Shown piece after piece: positions 2,328-20,454 of a stretch of 64,000 bases of DNA. The notes beneath the pieces were generated by a model. The model did not search any database, was not told the origin of the DNA, and saw only the letters and a list, made by a program, of their open reading frames with translations. The stretch comes from Clostridium massiliamazoniense (GTDB lineage Bacteria > Bacillota > Clostridia > Clostridiales > Clostridiaceae): assembly GCF_001403635.1 (NCBI RefSeq), contig NZ_LN879466.1:336254-400253 (forward strand), written 5' to 3'. The stretch's first letter is position 1. Each line of letters starts with the position of its first letter. Made by a program: the position numbers and the translations under genes.

Positions 2328-3422
2328 ATGGGAAATAAGGTAAGAGAAGAAATTGAAGGATTAAATAAGTATATAGGTGGTAAACCTATTTCTGAGGTAA
2401 AAAGAGAGTTTAATATTGATAAAGTGGTCAAAATGGCATCTAATGAGAACCCTTTAGGATGTTCTGATTCTGTTAAAGATGTTTTAAAGAATCTTGTTGA
2501 TAATACTGCTCTTTATCCAGATGGAGACAATTATTATTTAAGAAAGTCTTTAAGTCAATTTATTGGTATAGATGAAGAGAATATTATTTTAGGAGCAGGT
2601 TCTAGTTCTTTGATTAAGGTTATTTGCAATACTCTAATAAATAAGGGTGAAGAGTCTATTATGGGTGAGATTACCTTTGTACTTTATGAAACTTTTACTA
2701 AACTCATGGGGGGAAAGGCTATTAAGGTTCCTATGAAAGATTTAGCCTTGGATTTAGATAGTATTTTAGATAGCATAAATGAGAGAACTAAAATTATATG
2801 GCTTTGCAATCCAAATAATCCTACTGGAACAGCTTTTACTACTAAGGAACTTGAAGAATTTTTAGAGAAAGTTCCTAAAAATGTATATGTGGTTATTGAT
2901 GAAGCTTATAAAGAGTATGTTTCAATGGAGAATTATCCCGATTCTTTAAGTCTACTTAAAAATTATAAGAATATAATTATATTAAGAACTTTTTCAAAGG
3001 CTTATGGATTAGCATCCTTAAGAGTAGGATATGGTATATGTGATGAAGAGTTAGCTGAATATTTTAATAGAGTACTTAATCCTTTTGAAGTCAGTCTTTA
3101 TGCACAGAATGCAGCTGTAGAAGCAATTAAGGATAAAGAATTTGTGGAGTATTGCTATGATTATAATAAAAAGCAAAGAGAATTTTTTTATAAGGCTTTT
3201 AAGAAACTAAATTTGGATTATAAGGAATCACAAAGTAATTTTATTTTAGTTGACGTTAAAGGAGAAGATAGAGAAATCAATGATTATCTATTGAAAAATG
3301 GATATATTATAAGACCTGGATATTTATTGGGATGCTCTGGATATTTAAGAATTTCTGTAGGACTAGAAGAAGATAATAAAAAATTAATAGAGTTATTAAA
3401 TAAATATTTTAGAGAGAAATAG
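2328..3422 (+). CDS. HisC-like class I/II PLP aminotransferase
   Basis: 364-aa pyridoxal-phosphate aminotransferase of the histidinol-phosphate aminotransferase (HisC) / CobD group. Seen: SNENPLG near the N-terminus, CNPNNPTG, IDEAYKEY, the PLP lysine motif TFSKAYGLASLRVGY, and a C-terminal LRISVG substrate-binding arginine region. Start ATG follows GAGAGGAG. No other his genes are nearby, so the natural substrate is uncertain; aromatic amino acid or phosphoserine-like transamination is possible. The gene stands alone, with a terminator upstream and about 350 bp of non-coding DNA downstream. Confidence 0.85.
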   Translation: MGNKVREEIEGLNKYIGGKPISEVKREFNIDKVVKMASNENPLGCSDSVKDVLKNLVDNTALYPDGDNYYLRKSLSQFIGIDEENIILGAGSSSLIKVICNTLINKGEESIMGEITFVLYETFTKLMGGKAIKVPMKDLALDLDSILDSINERTKIIWLCNPNNPTGTAFTTKELEEFLEKVPKNVYVVIDEAYKEYVSMENYPDSLSLLKNYKNIIILRTFSKAYGLASLRVGYGICDEELAEYFNRVLNPFEVSLYAQNAAVEAIKDKEFVEYCYDYNKKQREFFYKAFKKLNLDYKESQSNFILVDVKGEDREINDYLLKNGYIIRPGYLLGCSGYLRISVGLEEDNKKLIELLNKYFREK

Positions 3423-3768
3423 AGGATTTATTAAAAAGAAGGAGCTTCTTTATGGAAGCAAGTAGATAGACAAGATGAACCTATATAGCAAGTTAAAACT
3501 AAAAAGTGATATATCTATAAATTTGATACATCTCCATGGATTTCTTTTGGAAATCATAAGGAAATAAAGTTGTAGTAAATCTTTATTTATTGTAAAATAT
3601 TATTTTGATCTCCACTCTAATAGGGTGGAGAATTTCGTACATATAGGTTAAAATTATAGATAGATATTTTATTTATAATTCTATAGAACGTATTAATTTA
3701 ATTGAATATATTTTAGATTTAGTAAAATGAGGACAACCTTTTTATTAAATGATTTTAGGAGGGCTAAT
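3423..3768 (+). other. Intergenic region upstream of rapZ
   Basis: About 345 bp without a convincing gene. It contains a short CCTATATAGC box (about 3480) resembling the dispersed repeat core described elsewhere. It also has an 8-bp stem with a 5-nt loop (CTCCACTC/GGGTGGAG, 3610-3630) that lacks a T-run, so it is not an obvious terminator. The rapZ promoter presumably lies in 3640-3750. Confidence 0.5.
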
Positions 3769-4653
3769 ATGAGATTTGTAATAGTTACAGGACTTTCAGG
3801 AGCAGGAAAAACAGAGGCAACAAGAAGCTTAGAGGATTTAGGTTACTTTTGTGTAGATAATTTACCTCCAAAGTTAATACCTAAGTTTGCAGAGGCGTGC
3901 TTACAAGGTAATAATGGTATAGAGAAGGTTGCATTAGTTATAGATATTAGAGGTGGTATATTCTTCGATGATTTATTTGAAAGTTTCATATACTTAAAAG
4001 CTAATGATTTTAAATATGAAATTTTATTCTTAGATGCTGGGGACGAAGTACTTGTAAAGAGATTTAAGGAAAGTAGAAGAAGCCATCCATTATCACCAGA
4101 TGGTAGAATATTAACTGGGATTGAAAATGAGAGAAATAAGTTGAGAGAACTTAAAGATAGAGCAGATAACATAGTTGATACTTCTAAATATGCTATAAAG
4201 GATTTAAGAGAGAAACTAAATGTTCTTTATGGTGATGGTAAGGAACCAGAACAAAATATAACAGTAACCGTATTATCTTTTGGATTTAAGTATGGGATAC
4301 CTATGGATTCAGACTTAGTATTTGATGTTAGATTTATTCCTAATCCATTTTATATACCAGAACTTAAACCTTATTCAGGAGCAGATGAGCCAGTTAAGGA
4401 CTATGTTTTAAGCCAAGAAGAAACTAAAGGATTTTTAACAAGGTTAAATGATATGTTGAAGTTTTTAGTTCCTAATTACGTTAAAGAGGGTAAGAGACAA
4501 CTTATTATTTCAATAGGTTGTACAGGGGGAAGACATAGATCTGTAGCCATAGCTAATGAATTAGCAGTAAACTTAGCTTCTGCTGGTTTTAATTCATCAG
4601 TTGAGCATAGAGATATAAAGGAAGATGTTAATAGAGGAGCTAAGAAGCTCTAA
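3769..4653 (+). CDS. rapZ: RNase adapter protein RapZ / YvcJ, nucleotide-binding
   Basis: P-loop protein of the YvcJ/RapZ family, 294 aa from the preferred ATG at 3769 (preceded by AGGAGGG). An upstream in-frame ATG at 3727 lacks a ribosome site. Seen: N-terminal Walker [11 protein letters not shown] and the conserved C-terminal motif [17 protein letters not shown]. In Gram-negatives RapZ binds GlcN6P and steers RNase E; in Firmicutes the protein binds and hydrolyses nucleotides. It heads the conserved rapZ-yvcK-whiA cluster, with yvcK about 15 bp downstream. Confidence 0.93.
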
Positions 4654-4667
4654 GTATAGGAGTGAGA

Positions 4668-5672
4668 ATGATGACAGTAGAAGTATGTGACAAAAGTAAT
4701 TCATATCCTAATATAGCTGTTATAGGTGGTGGAACAGGGCTTTCCACAATGCTTAGAGGACTTAAAAAGCATTGTTGTAATATAACAGCAATTGTAACAG
4801 TAGCTGATGATGGTGGCGGATCTGGTGTTTTAAGAGAAGACTTAGGAATGTTACCACCAGGAGATATTAGAAACTGTATTTTAGCATTATCAAATACTGA
4901 ACCCATTTTAGGAGAATTACTTAATTATAGATTCAAAGATGGAAGATTAAAAGGTCAAAACTTTGGTAACTTATTTCTTGCAGCTATGAATGGTATTTCT
5001 ATAAATTTTCAAGATGCAGTACAAAATATGAGTTCAGTTCTTTCTGTTGCAGGAAAGGTTTTACCTGTAACATTGGACTCTGTTGAGTTAGAAGCAGAAC
5101 TTGAAAATGGTGTTGTTGTTAGAGGAGAGTCAAATATCCCAACAGAGGCTATTTCTCAGGGAAGTCCAATAAAGGACTTAAGAATAATACCTAAAGAAGC
5201 AGAGGCTGTTGAAGAAGCTATTTTAGCTATTAGAGAGGCTGATGCTATAGTTTTAGGACCAGGAAGTTTATATACAAGTATAATTCCTAATCTCCTTGTT
5301 GAGGAAATAGGAAAAGAAGTTCAAAAAAGTAAAGCAAAAAAAATATATGTATGTAATGTTATGACTCAACCAGGAGAAACTACGGATTTCAATGTTTCGG
5401 ATCATATTAAAGAAATTTATAAATATTGTGGAGAAAACAGCATAGACTATGTTATAGCTAATGTTGGTAAAATAGATGATGCTTTAATTAAAAGATATTA
5501 TAATGAGAAAAATTCTAAATTAGTAACATTAGATAGAGAAGAGGTTGAAGCTCTAGATGTTGAAATAATAGAAGGAAATTTAGTAAATGTTAAGTATAAC
5601 TATATTAGACATGATGCTAATAATCTTTCAGAACTTATTATAAAAACTATAGAGTTAGATAGAAGAAAATAA
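4668..5672 (+). CDS. yvcK: Gluconeogenesis/cell-envelope factor YvcK (CofD-like)
   Basis: About 335-aa YvcK/GlmR-family protein of the CofD-like fold, binding UDP-sugars and linking carbon flux to peptidoglycan synthesis. Motifs: VIGGGTGLSTMLRGLK near the N-terminus, VADDGGGSGVLRED, PPGDIRNC, and GPGSLYTSIIPNLLV. Start: GGAG at 4659-4662 serves ATG 4668 or ATG 4671; a GTG at 4662 is also in frame but overlaps that site. Lies between rapZ and whiA as in most Firmicutes. Confidence 0.93.
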   Translation: MMTVEVCDKSNSYPNIAVIGGGTGLSTMLRGLKKHCCNITAIVTVADDGGGSGVLREDLGMLPPGDIRNCILALSNTEPILGELLNYRFKDGRLKGQNFGNLFLAAMNGISINFQDAVQNMSSVLSVAGKVLPVTLDSVELEAELENGVVVRGESNIPTEAISQGSPIKDLRIIPKEAEAVEEAILAIREADAIVLGPGSLYTSIIPNLLVEEIGKEVQKSKAKKIYVCNVMTQPGETTDFNVSDHIKEIYKYCGENSIDYVIANVGKIDDALIKRYYNEKNSKLVTLDREEVEALDVEIIEGNLVNVKYNYIRHDANNLSELIIKTIELDRRK

Positions 5673-6750: not shown

Positions 6751-6963
6751 TTGCTATTAATTGTTTTGGAGTTTAACTCTTTATAAGCCAATATTATTTT
6801 ATGCAATAAAATTTCCTTTTAATACTTTTTAGATATTTGAAGATGTTTAAACTTTGAATAAGAGTTGAGGTTTGAGTTAATTATTTAGTATAAGAGGTCT
6901 TGTTTAAATTAATATTAGGTTATTTTTTTATATTTATAAGATGTGGGAAGGGAAGTGATTTTA

Positions 6964-9297
6964 TTGAGTGAAAGAAAGTTTACCCATCTTCATGTCCATT
7001 CAGGTTATAGCTTATTAGATGGTTCTGGTAAGGTTAAGGATATTATTGCAAAAGCTAAAGAGCTTAATATGGATAGTATTGCTTTAACAGACCATGGTGT
7101 TATGTATGGATGTGTCAATATTTATAAAGAAGCAAGAGAACAAGGGATAAAAGCTATATTAGGTTGTGAAGTTTATATAGTTCCTAAGTCTATGCATATA
7201 AAATCTTTAGATAGTGATAATAAAACCTATCATTTAGTACTTCTTGTTAAAAATGAAAAAGGTTATGAAAATCTAATGAAGATAGCTTCAACAGCATCTA
7301 TAGAAGGATTTTATTATAAACCTAGAATTGATAGGGATTTTTTAAAGGAGCATTCTGAAGGGCTTATTGCTCTTAGTGCCTGTTTAGGTGGAGAAGTTCA
7401 AAAAGCTATTATTTCTGGAAACTTAGAAAAAGCTAAAGAAGCGGCTTTATTTTATAAATCTGTTTTTGGAGAAGATTTTTATCTAGAACTTCAAGACCAC
7501 GGTATGGAAGAACAAAAGAAGGTTAACGAGGTTAATATAAAGCTTTCTAAGGAGCTTAATATTCCTTTAGTAGCAACTAATGATGTCCATTACATAGTTC
7601 AAGATGATTATAAGGCACACGACATTTTAATGTGTATTCAATCAGGAAAAACTGTTGATGATACTAACAGAAAAAAATATCCTTCAGATCAATTTTACTT
7701 AAAATCACCAGAGGAAATGTGGGAGCTTTTTGATTACATTCCAGAAGCTTTAGAAAATACAACAACAATAGCTGAGCAATGTAATTTTGATTATGAATTC
7801 CATGTATCTAAATTACCTAAATATCCATTACCAGAGGGCGAAGATGATCCTTATGAGTATTTAGTTAAAACTTGTTTTAAAGGTCTTGTAGAAAGATATA
7901 AAATATTTGATGAGTTTAAAGGTGATTTTGATTATAAAGATGTAATTGAATTTGCAGAGAATGAAGAAGAAGCTAAGGAGCTTGTAGATAGACTTCTTTA
8001 TGAAGTTGGAGTTATAAAACAAATGGGTTATGTAGATTACTTCCTTATTGTTTGGGACTTCATAAAATATGCTATAGATAATGGTATACCAACGGGTCCA
8101 GGGCGTGGGTCGGCTGCAGGTTCTATAGTTGCTTATACCTTAGGAATAACAAAGATAGACCCTATAAAGTACAGTTTACTTTTTGAGCGTTTCTTAAACC
8201 CAGAAAGAGTTAGTATGCCTGATATAGATTCGGATTTTTGTTATGAGAGAAGACAAGAAGTTATAGATTACGTTGTTGAAAAGTATGGAGCATCAAATGT
8301 TGCCCAGATTATAACTTTTGGAACTATGGCTCCAAGAGCTTGTATAAGGGATGTAGGACGTGCAATGGATTATTCCTATGGAGAAGTAGATAGAATCGCT
8401 AAAATGATACCTACAATGCTAGGAATAACTATAGATAAAGCGTTAGAATTAAATCCAGAATTAAAGAGTGCTTATGATAGTGATATTAGAGTAAAGGAAC
8501 TTATTGATGTAAGTAGAAGACTAGAAGGGCTTCCAAGACATTCATCAACTCATGCTGCTGGAGTTGTTATAGCTTCAAAACCATTAGTTGAGTATGTTCC
8601 ATTACAAAAAAATGATGAATCTATAGTAACTCAATTTGATATGACAACTCTTGAAGAGCTTGGACTATTAAAGATGGACTTCCTTGGACTTCGTACTTTA
8701 ACAGTTATGGATGATGCTGTTAAAATGATTAAGGAAAATCGAGGAGTGGACATAGATTTAGATAATATAGATTTTAATGATAAATCGGTTTATGACATGA
8801 TTGGAGAAGGTAAAACAGCAGGGGTATTCCAGTTAGAATCAGCAGGAATGACTTCCTTCATGAAAGATCTAAAACCAGACTGTTTTGAGGATATTATAGC
8901 AGGAATTTCACTGTATAGACCAGGTCCAATGGCAGAAATTCCAAGATATATAGAAGGAAAAAGAAATCAAGAAAACGTAAAATATGACCATGAAAAATTA
9001 GAAGATATATTAAATGTTACCTATGGAGTTATGGTTTACCAAGAACAAGTAATGGAAATAGTTATGAAACTAGCGGGATACTCAATGGGAAGAAGTGACC
9101 TTGTTAGAAGAGCTATGTCAAAGAAAAAACATAAGGTAATGGAAGAAGAAAGAAAGAACTTTATTCATGGTATAGTAGATGAAAATGGGAACATAGAGGT
9201 TCCTGGATGTATTAGAAATGGTGTTTCAGAAGAAGCAGCAAATAAGATATTTGATTCAATGATGGATTTTGCCTCTTATGCATTCAACAAAAGCCAT
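6964..9297 (+). CDS. dnaE: DNA polymerase III alpha subunit DnaE, exon 1
   Basis: First 778 codons of a DnaE-type replicative polymerase, which in Firmicutes works with PolC. Start is TTG 6964, giving M-SERKFTHLHVHSGYSLLDG; a GGGAAGTGAT ribosome site precedes it, and the in-frame GTG at 6943 overlaps that site. N-terminal PHP domain, then the palm with the catalytic Asp motif PDIDSDFCYE and the fingers. The continuous frame would end eight codons after the conserved FNKSH with an unrelated tail. The polymerase sequence resumes at 10749 with AAAYAVIGYDT, so 9298-10748 must be removed from the RNA. Exon 1 ends in phase 0 after CAT (His). Confidence 0.93.
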
Positions 9298-10748
9298 AAA
9301 ATAGCAAGTGTGGCATTATAAGGTAACTTATAATTAAAAACTCCTTAAATTGCTGGAAAGTCCTAAAGTCACTTAAACTACAACAAAATTTGAAAAGATA
9401 ATTGTGAATGTTGCAGAAATGCAGAAAAAATTAAGTGAATTATATATGGGGAGACCCTAAGTATAAAATTATTTTATTGTAGAAATAATAAACAATGGAT
9501 GATCAGCAACGAAATTTCTAAGGGAGTAATTTTATAATGACTATAAGGAAATAAAAATAATTTATATATTGAGCTCAAAAGGGAAATCACAAAGAGCGAT
9601 AAAAAAGATATTAAAACATAAATATAAATTAGATGTATTTCAAAATGATATAAATAGAATATGCCGAAAAGTAAATGTTAAAAAAAGAGAAAAATATAAT
9701 GAGAGAGAAAAAAATAAAATTTTATATTTATATTCAAAATTTATTAATACTGATAAGCTAATATTATATTTAAATTCAAAATATGAATATGATTTAACTA
9801 AAAATAAGATAAGGGATTTGGCATGTAGAAATGGAGTAAGTAAAGAAGTAACGAATATGTATTCACAATCTTATATAACAAGAAATGATGAATACGAAAT
9901 TGTTAGATTATATAAATTGGGAATGAGTTCTAATGAAATTGCTAAAATGTATTCTTACAAAACTAGAAACTCAATTTTACAAAAATTAGAGAAGATGAAT
10001 ATTAAGAGACGTGATTGCAATGAACTTAGAACAAAACGTAAGTCATATAGTAATTTTGATATAAAACTTATAGATACGGAATTCAAAGCATATTTAATAG
10101 GACTCATGTTAACTGATGGATATATTAATTCGAAAAGAAATTATTTTGGAATTGATTTGGTAGATGAAGATTGTATAAAATTTTTATGTGATGGGATAAA
10201 TTGCAAATATTTTACTATTAAAAGAAAAGGTGTTCAAGATAAGTATCGGTTAATTATATATGGTGAACAATATTTAGATCAATTAAGGAGATTTGCTATA
10301 GTCGAAAGAAAAACATTTGTTTCAGAAAAGCCAAAGCTTAAAAAGGAAGAATACAAATACATAGCATATTTATTGAGGGGTGTTATTGATGGAGATGGAT
10401 GGATAAGAAAGGATGGTAAGGAGTTTTTTATTTGTTCAGCATCAAGAGCGTTGATTAATTGGTATAAGGAATGTTTAGAATATATAGGAATGGAAGAGTT
10501 AAAAATTACATGGAATAAAAATGAATATAATGGATTTTATTTAATAAGAACGGCTAGAAAATTTAATTTAGAAATTTTAAGAAATACTATTTATAATAAA
10601 AATTTTGGAATGTATAGGAAATATAAAATTATTTCTATGAAAGACGCTCAGAGACTATAATAGGAGGTGCTCTAAGAGTACATGGTATAGTCCAGACTAC
10701 AACTACAGTTTTAAAAACTATAGGCTTATGAAAGTAAGTGTAGTAAAG
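9298..10748 (+). mobile_element. Group I self-splicing intron in dnaE
   Basis: A 1451-bp insertion between the NKSH and AAAY codons. Group I hallmarks: the last exon base is U at 9297, in a P1 helix where exon GCCAU (9293-9297) pairs with intron GUGGC (9310-9314), giving the required U-G wobble. A P-element-like AATTGCTGGAAA lies at 9348-9359. P7 forms from GACTATA (10653-10659) and TATAGTCC (10686-10693). The last intron base is G at 10748. Removal restores one open frame of 1188 residues. The R/S elements resemble subgroup IA introns with a long insertion holding the endonuclease ORF; the subgroup is inferred. Confidence 0.9.
9569..10660 (+). CDS. Intron-encoded LAGLIDADG homing endonuclease
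   Basis: 363-aa ORF inside the dnaE intron, read from TTG 9569. Two LAGLIDADG-type motifs are visible: AYLIGLMLTDGYI (about 174-186) and AYLLRGVIDGDGWI (about 267-279). The two acidic residues expected in one active site (D183 and D275) are kept, so the enzyme is probably active as a monomer. Residues 1-160 are basic and hold two helix-turn-helix-like segments (for example RLYKLGMSSNEIAKMY). The 3' end of the ORF (MKDAQRL and stop) overlaps the intron P7 core. No good ribosome site is seen before the TTG, so the true start is uncertain. Function would be cleavage of intronless dnaE alleles to drive intron homing. Confidence 0.88.
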   Translation: MSSKGKSQRAIKKILKHKYKLDVFQNDINRICRKVNVKKREKYNEREKNKILYLYSKFINTDKLILYLNSKYEYDLTKNKIRDLACRNGVSKEVTNMYSQSYITRNDEYEIVRLYKLGMSSNEIAKMYSYKTRNSILQKLEKMNIKRRDCNELRTKRKSYSNFDIKLIDTEFKAYLIGLMLTDGYINSKRNYFGIDLVDEDCIKFLCDGINCKYFTIKRKGVQDKYRLIIYGEQYLDQLRRFAIVERKTFVSEKPKLKKEEYKYIAYLLRGVIDGDGWIRKDGKEFFICSASRALINWYKECLEYIGMEELKITWNKNEYNGFYLIRTARKFNLEILRNTIYNKNFGMYRKYKIISMKDAQRL

Positions 10749-11981
10749 GCAGCAGCTTATGCAGTAATAGGATATGACACTGCATACTTAATGAGGTATT
10801 ATCCAGTTGAATTTATTGCAGCTATGCTTAACTCTGTTATGGGTACAAGTGAAAAAGTTGCAGAATATATCAGAACTGCTGAAAAATTAGGAATCGAAGT
10901 TTTACCTCCTAGTATCAATGAAAGTTATTCAAGATTTACTGTTAAGGGTAACAGTATTAGATTTGGTTTAGCAGCTATTAAGAATGTTGGTATGAATGTT
11001 GTTGATAGTATTGTTGAAGCTAGGAAGGAAAAGGGGCTTTTTAAGTCTCTTATGGATTTTTGTAATAAGATGGAGAGTGGCGTTATCAATAAGAGAGCAG
11101 TCGAGAGTTTAATTAAGGCAGGAGCCTTTGACGAGTTTGGTTTATTTAGATCACAACTTGTAGCTGTTCATGAAAAGCTTATTGATGGAATTTCATCTCA
11201 AAAGAAAAAGAATATAGATGGTCAAATTTCTTTATTTGGAGCTTTAAGTGAAGAAGATAGTGAAAGTCTTGAAATTAGTTATCCTAATATTAAGGAGTTT
11301 GCAAAAAAACATAAGCTAGCTATGGAGAAAGAAATGACTGGACTTTATTTAAGTGGTCATCCTCTTGATGATTATAAGAGAAGTCTTAAACTTCAAACAT
11401 CTATTGAAATAGGTAATATTCAAGAAGAACATAAAAAGTTTGAAGAAACACCTATGGAGATGGTTTCTGACTTAATTTCTTTAAAAGATGGAGAACGAGT
11501 GGTTATAGGGGGAATCCTTAACCAAGTTTCTAGAAAGGTAACTAGAAATAATACCATAATGGCTTTTGCAACTTTAGAGGATTTATCAGGAATGATGGAG
11601 TTAGTTGTTTTCCCTAAGACTTTAGAAAAATGCAATTCTTTAATTCATGAGGACTTAATGGTTGTTGCTAAGGGAAGATTATCTTTCAAAGAGGATGAAG
11701 AACCTAAATTACTTTGTGAAGAAATAAAACCTTTGGAAAATGTAAATTCAGATAAGGTTTATATAAAAGTGGATGATAAAGAAAAAGCTATGGCTATAGG
11801 TAAAGCTTTAAAAGTATTAGTAGAGCCATATAAAGGTGATTCAGCAGTGTATATATTTGCTGCAAAAGAAAGACAAAGCTTTAGGATGAATAGAGAAGGA
11901 TGGGTAGATACAAATACAGAAGTAATTTCAATTTTAAAAGAAAAATTTGGTGATGAAAATGTTAAAGTAGTTCCTGAATAA
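10749..11981 (+). CDS. dnaE: DNA polymerase III alpha subunit DnaE, exon 2
   Basis: Last 410 codons of dnaE, beginning GCA GCA GCT TAT (AAAY). It completes the fingers motif FNKSH-AAAYAVIGYDTAYL and continues with a helix-hairpin-helix region (KRAVESLIKAGAFDEFG) and a C-terminal OB fold (GERVVIGGILNQV, MAFATLEDLSGMMELVVFP). An ATG at 10728 lies inside the intron 3' end and is not a real start. Spliced DnaE is 1188 aa, normal for the family. A hairpin lies just downstream. Confidence 0.93.
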   Translation, partial: AAAYAVIGYDTAYLMRYYPVEFIAAMLNSVMGTSEKVAEYIRTAEKLGIEVLPPSINESYSRFTVKGNSIRFGLAAIKNVGMNVVDSIVEARKEKGLFKSLMDFCNKMESGVINKRAVESLIKAGAFDEFGLFRSQLVAVHEKLIDGISSQKKKNIDGQISLFGALSEEDSESLEISYPNIKEFAKKHKLAMEKEMTGLYLSGHPLDDYKRSLKLQTSIEIGNIQEEHKKFEETPMEMVSDLISLKDGERVVIGGILNQVSRKVTRNNTIMAFATLEDLSGMMELVVFPKTLEKCNSLIHEDLMVVAKGRLSFKEDEEPKLLCEEIKPLENVNSDKVYIKVDDKEKAMAIGKALKVLVEPYKGDSAVYIFAAKERQSFRMNREGWVDTNTEVISILKEKFGDENVKVVPE

Positions 11982-17872: not shown

Positions 17873-18424
17873 GTGAATTATGATTATATCCATAATTATA
17901 GTGAAGATGAATTTGAGGATATTCAATCTCATTATGATGGAAAAGCTGAATATGATAATGGATTAATATTTTTAAGTTCAACACCCTCAGTAAAGCATAA
18001 TGAAATAAAAAGAAATATTTTAACTGAATTTTCAATATATTTAAAAGGTTCAAAGTGTAAAGTTTATGATGAACAAATAGAAGTTATTTTTAATTATAGA
18101 GATGATATCAGAAAATATAAGCCAGATATTTTTGTTATGTGTGAAGATGCAACTAAAAAGGGTGAAAGTTTTACTTCAGTACCTAAACTAATCTTTGAAA
18201 TACTTTCAAAATCTACAGCTAAATTTGATAAGGGAAGAAAATATGAGACTTATGAAAGATTTGGAGTTTTAGAATATAATTTGGTTGAGCAGAATGGATT
18301 TATTGTGCAGCATAAATTAATTGATGGCACATATCAAATAGTTAATGTATATAAGAATAATGATGATTATACATCTGTGGTTTTTCCAAATTTAAAAATA
18401 AATTTGAATGATATATTTGAATAA
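17873..18424 (+). CDS. Uma2-family (DUF820) putative restriction-like endonuclease
   Basis: 183-aa protein of the Uma2/DUF820 group of PD-(D/E)XK nucleases. Seen: EYDNGLIFLSSTPSVKHN, then KPDIFVMCED and KLIFEILSKSTAKFD with the acidic and Lys-rich active-site pattern, and KYETYERFGVLEYNLV. Start GTG 17873 after GAGGAGGAA. The family is abundant in cyanobacteria and some Firmicutes; its function is not established. It has its own terminator (18428-18457), so it is probably not co-transcribed with the ATPase/HNH pair that follows. Confidence 0.8.
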   Translation: MNYDYIHNYSEDEFEDIQSHYDGKAEYDNGLIFLSSTPSVKHNEIKRNILTEFSIYLKGSKCKVYDEQIEVIFNYRDDIRKYKPDIFVMCEDATKKGESFTSVPKLIFEILSKSTAKFDKGRKYETYERFGVLEYNLVEQNGFIVQHKLIDGTYQIVNVYKNNDDYTSVVFPNLKINLNDIFE

Positions 18425-18527: not shown

Positions 18528-19778
18528 ATGGGAAATCATTTTATAACTAATATAAATATAAAAAAATTAAGACATTTAGAAAATATAAATATAGATTTGG
18601 ATAAAGAAAATAAAAAACATTTAATATTAACAGGAAAAAATGGTGCAGGAAAAACTACTACGTTATTAGCTTTAAAAGATGATTTGAGGGCTATTCAAGA
18701 AGGGCTATCTTCTTTTGTTAAGATGAGAAAAGAAGATTTGAATAGATTAAAAAATCAATTAAATAAAGCTAGTTCTGACGATGAAATAAAAAAGTTAGAG
18801 GCGAGTATAGAAGGATGCAGTAATGACATAAGAAGACATTCTTGTATTGAGTTAGACTTAGAGTTTAATACTGATGTCTCTGAGCTTGATAATGTGTATA
18901 AGTTGGGTAATTTTATATTAGCTTATTATGGTTCTAACAGACAAATTAAGGTTGAAACTCCTAAAGGAGTAGAAAAAATTGAATTAAAGTTAAGATATTC
19001 TATTGAAGATAAGCCTTCTAGTATATTTGTTAAGTATTTAGTTGACTTAAAGACACAACAATCTTTTGCTAGAAATGAAAATGAAAATGATGTAGTTGAA
19101 AATATTGAGGAATGGTTTAAGAGATTAGAAAAGGCTTTAGGATTAATATTGGATGATAAAAGTGTAAAATTAAAATTTGATTATAGAAATTATAATTTTA
19201 AAATATATCAAGAAGGGAGAGAACCTTTTAGTTTTAATGATTTATCTGATGGATATTCTTCTATATTGAGTATTCTTTCTGATTTAATACTTAGAATGGA
19301 TAAGGAGAGAGCAAGTAGAGAAAAAAATTATGCTTTTGATTTAGAGGGGATTGTTTTAATTGATGAAATAGAAACTCATCTTCATATAGAGTTACAAAAA
19401 GTAATATTACCATTTTTAAGTGAGTTTTTCCCTAACTTACAGTTTATTGTAACTACTCACTCACCTTTTGTGTTAAGTTCAGTAAATAATGCTGTAATTT
19501 ATGATTTAGAAAAAAATTTAAGGATAGAAAACTTATCTAATTATTCTTATGAAGGAATTGTAGAATGTTATTTTGAAGTTGATAATTATTCTGAAGAGTT
19601 AAAGAAGAAGATCGAGGAATATAGAGAATTAGTATTTAAAAATAATTTATCTGATGATGAAAGGGCAAGAAGAGCAGAACTTAGAATAGAACTTAAAAAT
19701 GCAGCAAATGATTTAGCTGGTGAGGTTAAAGCAGAATTTAATCGAATTGAACTGGAGAGGAAAAGTTACAATGATTAA
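18528..19778 (+). CDS. ABC/RecF-type ATPase of a Septu-like (PtuA) defence pair
   Basis: 416-aa cytosolic ATPase: Walker A GKNGAGKTT (about 36-44), a coiled insertion with charged helices (about 60-110), an ABC-signature-like LSDGYSSILS, Walker B GIVLIDEIETHLH, and the H-loop VTTHSPFVLSS. Its last 8 bp overlap the start of an HNH nuclease gene. That layout matches Septu systems (PtuA ATPase plus PtuB HNH), also found as retron effectors; no reverse transcriptase is nearby. The Septu assignment is inferred from domain pairing and motif style. Confidence 0.75.
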   Translation: MGNHFITNINIKKLRHLENINIDLDKENKKHLILTGKNGAGKTTTLLALKDDLRAIQEGLSSFVKMRKEDLNRLKNQLNKASSDDEIKKLEASIEGCSNDIRRHSCIELDLEFNTDVSELDNVYKLGNFILAYYGSNRQIKVETPKGVEKIELKLRYSIEDKPSSIFVKYLVDLKTQQSFARNENENDVVENIEEWFKRLEKALGLILDDKSVKLKFDYRNYNFKIYQEGREPFSFNDLSDGYSSILSILSDLILRMDKERASREKNYAFDLEGIVLIDEIETHLHIELQKVILPFLSEFFPNLQFIVTTHSPFVLSSVNNAVIYDLEKNLRIENLSNYSYEGIVECYFEVDNYSEELKKKIEEYRELVFKNNLSDDERARRAELRIELKNAANDLAGEVKAEFNRIELERKSYND

Positions 19779-20454
19779 GTTTGATAGAAGTATTGAGTGT
19801 GGTGAAATTAAGTTAGCTAAAGAAGTTCTAGAAAAAGAAAAGCTAAAGAATAGTGGTACTTATAATAAAAAGGAAGTTTTAGATGCACTAATGATTGTTT
19901 TTAGTGGAAAGTGCTATATTTGTGAAAATAAAAAAATAACCTCTTACAATATAGAACACTTAAAGCCACATAGAGATTCAAATATAGACTTAAAATTTGA
20001 TTGGGAAAATTTATTTTTAGCTTGTGGTCATTGTAATAATATTAAATCTGATAAATTTGATAATATTTTAAATTGTAGCATAGTGGATGTTGACGAGAAA
20101 ATATCCTTTAGAAAATTTGGCAACTTTTCTTGGAATGAAAAAGTAGAGATATTGCCTTTAGAAGAGGATGAAGAAGTTTTAAAGACTGTTGAATTATTAA
20201 ATAAAGTTTATAATGGAACTACAGAAATTAAAACTTTAGAATGTAAAAATATAATAAGAGAATTAAGATATTCATTAAATGAATTTACAGATGTAATAAA
20301 TGAATATTGTGAATCAACTGGAGAAGCTAAAGAAGATGCCAGATTATTAATACATAAGCATTTAAGAGTACCTTCACCTTTTGCAGCTTTTAAAAGATGG
20401 ATAATAAAAGATAATAAAGAGATATTAAATGATATTTTAATAAAAGGAAAATAA
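19771..20454 (+). CDS. HNH endonuclease of a Septu-like (PtuB) defence pair
   Basis: 227-aa protein from ATG 19771 (AGAGGAAAAG upstream). The HNH zinc motif is clear: CYICENKK, NIEHLKPH, WENLFLACGHCNNIKSD, giving two Cys pairs around the catalytic His and Asn. It fits the HNH family annotated as retron/Septu nuclease (TIGR02646-like). It overlaps the ATPase gene by ATGATTAA, implying coupled translation and a stoichiometric complex. The start at 19720 in the same frame is upstream of the ribosome site and unlikely. Confidence 0.8.
   Translation: MIKFDRSIECGEIKLAKEVLEKEKLKNSGTYNKKEVLDALMIVFSGKCYICENKKITSYNIEHLKPHRDSNIDLKFDWENLFLACGHCNNIKSDKFDNILNCSIVDVDEKISFRKFGNFSWNEKVEILPLEEDEEVLKTVELLNKVYNGTTEIKTLECKNIIRELRYSLNEFTDVINEYCESTGEAKEDARLLIHKHLRVPSPFAAFKRWIIKDNKEILNDILIKGK

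Follow-up and report, generated by a model that had tools for sequence, protein, structure and literature searches.

The interrupted dnaE gene

The window analysed here, a stretch of 64,000 nt from Clostridium massiliamazoniense (contig NZ_LN879466.1, positions 336,254 to 400,253), contains a chromosomal dnaE gene whose reading frame is broken by an insert of 1451 nt, very probably a mobile group I intron harboring a homing endonuclease gene. Exon 1 is open up to CAT at 9297, the last codon of a stretch ending in YAFNKSH, and reading on in frame into the insert yields K-I-A-S-V-A-L followed by a stop codon (TAA, 9319-9321). Exon 2 starts with AAAYAVIGY at 10749 and is open to 11981, so that both exons are fully open. 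A break of this kind, falling after FNKSH and ending 1451 bp further on, had been proposed in an initial annotation based on the window alone, and it is confirmed by the open reading frames (ORFs), by flank mapping and by alignment with the homologous insert of a second species. The main features, all on the forward strand, are:

6943 to 9297, forward strand: dnaE exon 1, start at GTG 6943 or a later codon (uncertain), with PHP, palm and finger domains (ORF list; Pfam PF02811, PF07733, PF17657)
9298 to 10748, forward strand: group I intron, 1451 nt, final base G (sequence, Rfam on locus L110, flank mapping, P3 covariation)
9569 to 10660, forward strand: ORF of a LAGLIDADG homing endonuclease, 363 aa from TTG 9569 (PF14528)
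10749 to 11981, forward strand: dnaE exon 2, to the stop codon, with helix-hairpin-helix and OB domains (ORF list; Pfam PF14579, PF01336)

Insert boundaries were assessed by searching the 148 nt upstream and the 152 nt downstream of the insert separately against all fetched loci. The two flanks were contiguous (gap 0) in 43 of the 67 loci presenting both (41 of 63 when four doubly represented genomes are counted once), and in the remaining 24 they were separated by 345-2766 nt at or near the insertion site. Moreover, blastn aligns the insert over its full length (bases 1 to 1451) with the whole insert of L118, from the second species, at 71% identity. The boundaries are therefore independently confirmed, by the end-to-end alignment with L118 and by the abutting flanks in relatives. 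At the FNKSH site alone, the best 80 dnaE loci from titled genome records among the matches listed showed a gap of at most 12 nt in 78 cases, an intron in one (Clostridium gallinarum, L008) and a contig edge in another.

Ribozyme core and endonuclease reading frame

The insert contains the helices of a group I ribozyme, of which P1 (with its U·G pair at the splice site), P7 and the terminal G lie where the initial annotation had put them, the 3' strand of P7 spanning 10686-10692. The interval 9348-9359, which had been labelled P-element, covers the 5' strand of P4, and that label is replaced accordingly. The predicted elements, again on the forward strand, are:

9293-9297 (exon GCCAU) with 9310-9314 (GUGGC), forward strand: P1, U·G at the splice site; 47 of 47 pairs in nine sequences, strands picked by eye
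9315-9322 with 9327-9334, forward strand: P2 hairpin, containing the in-frame stop TAA 9319-9321 (comparison of relatives)
9341 to 9345, forward strand: P3 5' strand CUCCU, partner 10662-10666 about 1.3 kb downstream (covariation)
9350 to 9355, forward strand: P4 5' strand, partner 9504-9509 (sequence complementarity, no statistics)
9369-9376 with 9431-9438, forward strand: P5, 69 of 69 pairs in nine sequences versus 52% after exchanging strands among the sequences; strands chosen by eye
9515 to 9518, forward strand: P6 5' strand UUUC, partner GAAA 10639-10642, with the endonuclease ORF in the loop (sequence, no statistics)
10653-10659 with 10686-10692, forward strand: P7, predicted by analogy to be the guanosine-binding helix; core GACUA/UAGUC invariant in nine introns
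10662 to 10666, forward strand: P3 3' strand AGGAG (covariation)
10667-10672 with 10676-10681, forward strand: P8 (comparison of relatives)
10697-10701 with 10739-10743, forward strand: P9 (comparison of relatives)
10725-10729 with 10734-10738, forward strand: P9.2 with a GAAA loop (comparison of relatives)

The strongest structural evidence was obtained for P3, evaluated at fixed positions in introns collected by their P7 motif. Of 22 such introns, 21 also presented the 5' motif, the exception (L097) starting within the intron at a contig end. Matching the 5 nt that precede UAAA(U/C)UGC against the 5 nt directly after CAGAGACUAUAAU gave 69 of 70 pairs (68 of them Watson-Crick) across 14 distinct strand pairs. 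Among 20,000 shuffles the mean was 35.8 and the maximum 55, none reaching 69, and slid registers gave 30-34 of 70. Chance is thus excluded, since the two strands covary. P2, P5, P8 and P9 covary as well, with strands picked by eye; across the helices selected in this way 410 of 412 own pairs form (366 of 367 without P3), a fraction biased upwards by choosing the strands for complementarity. The P7 core does not vary in nine sequences and is hence uninformative on covariation, the loci having been partly collected by this very motif. In each relative, the P1 guide tracks the exon sequence. The window copy retains intact pairs in P1, P2, P3, P5, P7, P8 and P9, and in P4 and P6 as judged from sequence. 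The insert ends in G10748 (omega-G), and the exons on either side of it join precisely and in frame.

The single long ORF of the insert matches PF14528 (LAGLIDADG_3) with 26.3 bits against a cut-off of 22.5. Together with the P3 covariation, an Rfam match of the homologous L110 intron and the Pfam domains of DnaE, this match bears out the initial proposal of a group I intron with a homing endonuclease in dnaE. The homologous introns in L118/L101, L001 and L086 contain related endonuclease ORFs. The window and L118 proteins are identical at 189 of 358 aa, and nucleotide identity by codon position (0.68/0.77/0.54) follows the pattern expected for a protein kept by selection, as far as sequence comparison can tell. 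Searches with peptide patterns yielded no close relative of the window endonuclease in genome contigs or viral contigs; relatives were recovered by the P7 DNA pattern and by whole-genome search (4 of 68 genomes). One relative lies in Dulem virus 36 (L002, 3343-4328) between two ORFs annotated as polymerase/primase, directly downstream of sequence resembling the 5' part of the window intron. Another LAGLIDADG relative (L103, genome G052) breaks a gene that resembles, by eye, a phage-type ATPase, and the endonuclease family therefore reaches beyond polymerases.

Elements in dnaE across hosts

The codon boundary interrupted in the window is also occupied in dnaE genes on genome contigs of three other Clostridiaceae species. 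In G043 (L118/L101) the full insert aligns and the endonuclease is 52-53% identical to that of the window; the introns of G012 (L110, 349 nt) and G113 (L137, 387 nt) are too short to encode one. An intron at the same boundary is found in dnaE of a 603-kb plasmid of Jeotgalibacillus malaysiensis (L001) and, at FNRGH|AVAYS, in a dnaE gene on a viral contig (L086). Four further viral-contig dnaE genes (L085, L092, L095, L098) carry related introns between F and N of the FNKSH motif, two of them (L095 and L098) with a related endonuclease. The megaplasmid gene has two introns (2857-3242 and 3257-4693, with splice points from P1 and the reading frame), and the exon between them measures 14 nt (3243-3256).

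Carriage of this intron is patchy. A stretch of 1236 nt from dnaE exon 1 of the window finds its best match among 206 family genomes at 78% identity, and G197 and G199, near relatives of the window by dnaE, are uninterrupted. On a dnaE tree of 44 rows (3 of 47 were dropped as they lacked the N-terminal part), G203, G197, G200 and G201 fall in one group with the window, and all four lack this intron. The four Clostridiaceae carriers are not clustered: they require four changes, at least three of them forced by well-supported branches, with a mean of 3.7 for shuffled labels. Such patchy carriage, with absence from the nearest relatives by dnaE, is compatible with spread by homing. The P7 DNA pattern of this subtype matched none of 291 genomes drawn from the class, and the exact subtype is consequently rare in the class.

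The initial annotation had described group I introns in bacterial chromosomal protein genes as rare. This holds for bacterial protein genes in general, according to a 2014 review (PMC3984707), but not for dnaE in Clostridiaceae, where the gene is interrupted in at least 35 of the 202 genomes presenting a match (206 searched). In the genus of C. gallinarum, searching 68 genomes with an uninterrupted DnaE identified 48 uninterrupted, 15 interrupted and 2 fragmentary genes and 3 genomes without a close DnaE; the remaining 20 interrupted genomes complete the 35, which is a minimum, most of the other 167 matched genomes having been judged at most from the matches listed. Elements were mapped at all 35 loci by exon mapping and Rfam, with Pfam applied to four inteins, and a total of 59 elements was located at ten positions, given here as DnaE residue numbers of L003 where available:

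GRG|S (382): 4 inteins, all with PF14890
409: 8 group I introns, 7 reaching the RF00028 gathering score
420 (PD|IDSDF): 10 group I introns, 1 reaching it
424: 3 group II introns
576: 1 group II intron
693: 10 group II introns
696: 1 group II intron
773 (inside the F codon of FNKSH): 16 group I introns, 8 reaching the RF00028 gathering score
777 (the window's site): 3 group I introns, 0 reaching it
KSH-G|CA (one base past the window's site): 3 group II introns

The RF00028 gathering score is attained by 16 of the 37 group I introns; the remaining 21 were classified by the site they share, by their end sequence or by the P7 motif. All 18 group II introns match RF02004 or RF00029 at gathering. 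Inserts near residue 382 in L111 and L120 had been considered as introns and were rejected, as they are inteins (PF14890). Some dnaE genes harbor three elements, for example group I, group II and group I introns in L110, an intein and two group I introns in L120, and one group I and two group II introns in L144. L110, L117, L118, L119 and L120, from five species, have near-identical DnaE N-termini (end branches 0.005-0.036), yet present five different element sets. Micro-exons also occur: in L139 (G123) two group I introns lie about 11 codons apart, and in L144 (G204) some 15 codons separate a group I intron from a group II intron. The group II introns at KSH-G|CA are those of L112, L113 and L130; the one in L112 codes for a protein of 638 aa that resembles reverse transcriptases and has an HNH-like stretch at its C-terminus (domains assigned by eye).

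Within the genus, no uninterrupted close full-length DnaE was found in the interrupted genomes among the matches listed, first-look candidates having been partly scored; G043 likewise yielded only pieces among the matches listed (10 of 13 first-look candidates scored). The spliced product is hence probably the usual source of DnaE in interrupted genomes. In G054, contig C90 matches DnaE residues 4-521 in one piece and contig C163 (L122) has the residue-420 intron, which may reflect an overlap in the assembly or a mixture of alleles. Besides the main dnaE, G012, G025 and G052 encode another, distantly related DnaE-like protein (28-37% identity) that may belong to a prophage or a plasmid.

Elsewhere in the window, the surrounding genes are presumably, judging from their ORFs, the end of uvrC, murB and whiA, followed by dnaE, pfkA and pyk, among which dnaE alone was assessed with Pfam. 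A Septu-type anti-phage pair occupies 18528-20454, composed of a PtuA-like ATPase (18528-19778, PADLOC E 3.7e-126) and a PtuB-like protein (19720-20454, E 3.5e-56), and is adjoined by a PDC-S03-like candidate defence gene (17873-18424).

Interpretation and comparison with known systems

The confirmed boundaries, the covarying core, the occupation of one site in unrelated hosts and the patchy distribution directly support the identification of 9298-10748 as a mobile group I intron in chromosomal dnaE, which we regard as very probably correct; the splicing, endonuclease activity, ribosome halting and spread by homing that it implies are predictions. In the pre-mRNA, the ribozyme would fold around a core of P3, P4-P6, P7 and P8, with P1 pairing GCCAU, where the 5' exon ends, to the guide GUGGC. 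Attack by guanosine would make the first cut after CAT, and a second cut after G10748 would join CAT to GCA and restore FNKSH-AAAYAV. The TAA at 9319-9321, directly after P1, would halt ribosomes before they unfold the core, in line with the reading given to such stops in a review (PMC3984707). The LAGLIDADG protein, whose ORF lies in the P6 loop, would cut intron-free dnaE at the conserved codon boundary, repair then copying the intron in. A role of splicing in regulation was considered and, as nothing pointed to it, not adopted. The initial annotation had further held that DNA synthesis would depend on RNA splicing; this stands for the share of replication carried by DnaE and not for the whole, PolC being also present in Clostridia (PMC12926913).

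Several observations weigh against this interpretation or parts of it. The covariance-model search suggested in the initial annotation gave no RF00028 score on the window: Rfam returned no group I match at gathering, nor up to E=10 on the intron region. The 349-nt endonuclease-less copy of L110 at the same site, which aligns to both halves of the window intron with 84% identity, does match RF00028 (positions 1-253, 32.6 bits, E 1.1e-6; gathering score 50). Since this copy scores, though under the cut-off, the miss in the window is probably due to the 1.1-kb ORF and to a poorly represented subtype, and covariation stands in for the model. A P10 helix sought by eye comprised 2-3 weak pairs and is not claimed. 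The endonuclease frame extends upstream of TTG 9569 without an ATG, GTG or TTG start, and ATG 9537 opens a frame of five codons only, whereas in L118 the frame is open from an ATG onwards. The window endonuclease may therefore be poorly expressed, decaying or lost. Decay after fixation is common among homing elements, and we infer that it could apply here. A recent transfer between G043 and the window is made less likely by the exons beside the site, which are better conserved (77-78%, or 77-80% with G012 included) than the whole insert (71%) or the endonuclease (53%). The intron core of the window is 84-85% identical to those of G043 and G012, with 73% over the first ~1.1 kb of dnaE exon 1, but the ribozyme core is structurally constrained and its higher identity is only suggestive of transfer. 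The case for transfer leans on patchy distribution more than on sequence identity, and our reading is that the intron has spread repeatedly among clostridia.

Alternative explanations were weighed against the same data. Splicing might have been lost, leaving dnaE broken or expressed as two polypeptides (residues 1-785 and the exon 2 ORF from ATG 10728). This in-frame ATG, 21 nt ahead of exon 2, also counts against the intron interpretation, as it makes separate translation conceivable; the endonuclease start appears impaired, and the homologous Jeotgalibacillus plasmid gene is annotated as two separate polymerase genes. Decay, however, should break pairing over 1.3 kb, and the window copy retains its helices between two fully open exons, which renders loss of splicing improbable. 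Related species carry group II introns and inteins in their dnaE genes, some of these elements 1 nt from the window's site, which raises the question of another splicing element. An intein is excluded by the stop codons within the insert (TAA 9319-9321), the insert ORF contains no reverse transcriptase or Hint domain (Pfam), and no RF00029 or RF02004 match was obtained in the window, though both were found at related dnaE loci; with the P1/P3/P7 group I architecture in place, this alternative is refuted for practical purposes. Much the same can be said of an IStron, in which a group I intron is combined with a transposon of the IS605/TnpB type. These are known clostridial group I elements, described in Clostridioides difficile (PMC4227781), but the sole long ORF here is a LAGLIDADG endonuclease lacking any transposase domain (Pfam), which leaves an IStron with a vanishingly small probability, and a codon-exact single site across unrelated hosts points to homing rather than transposition.

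The window intron would be one of several self-splicing elements that have repeatedly colonised Clostridiaceae dnaE, and the main interest lies in the hotspot that surrounds it. All three self-splicing classes (group I, group II and intein) have invaded this gene, in sets that differ even among near-identical DnaE proteins, and why such elements gather in replication genes becomes testable within one bacterial family. The occupation of one codon in polymerase genes of viral contigs, a plasmid and bacterial genomes points to exchange between mobile elements and hosts. In practical terms, gene finders will report a broken or split dnaE for many clostridia. A replicative polymerase gene would join the few bacterial chromosomal protein genes known to host group I introns, and, as far as the open-licence PMC literature was searched, dnaE is a new chromosomal host for such introns. 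None of the titles and abstracts found in that literature dealt with self-splicing introns in dnaE of clostridia.

Inteins of DnaE, among them the split inteins of cyanobacteria, target the conserved neighbourhood of FNKSH, and they undergo protein splicing, in contrast to the RNA splicing predicted for the window intron. The DnaE inteins found here in Clostridiaceae sit at GRG|S instead. A dnaE intein has also been reported in Thiomargarita (PMC4853749). Among published surveys, the 2014 review gives flagellin, recA and nrdE as chromosomal protein genes that host group I introns and counts phage polymerases among the targets, with dnaE absent from its main text (PMC3984707); the text of a 2025 database paper mentions neither dnaE nor polymerase (PMC11835236); and a 2026 survey of bacterial DNA polymerases assigns PolC and DnaE1 to Clostridia and terms both types essential Pol III alpha-subunits, the words intron and intein being absent from its text (PMC12926913). 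The recA, nrdE and nrdF introns of Bacillus and the cyanobacterial nrdE intron likewise interrupt chromosomal protein genes, but they belong to other genes and other families, and some of these Bacillus and cyanobacterial introns resemble phage introns (PMC3984707). The phage polymerase introns of SPO1, Bastille and Pf-WMP3 similarly combine a group I intron and a homing endonuclease in a polymerase gene (PMC3984707, PMC3428280); they reside in phage polymerases rather than in a bacterial Pol III alpha gene, and the likeness is one of description. The introns of L086 and L001 share the codon boundary of the window intron, and each has a core 61% identical to it; their endonucleases are 37% (L086, over 270 aa) and 38% (L001, over 97% of the query) identical to that of the window. 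They differ in their hosts, a dnaE gene on a viral contig or a plasmid, and in the Jeotgalibacillus gene another group I intron precedes the shared one by 14 nt.
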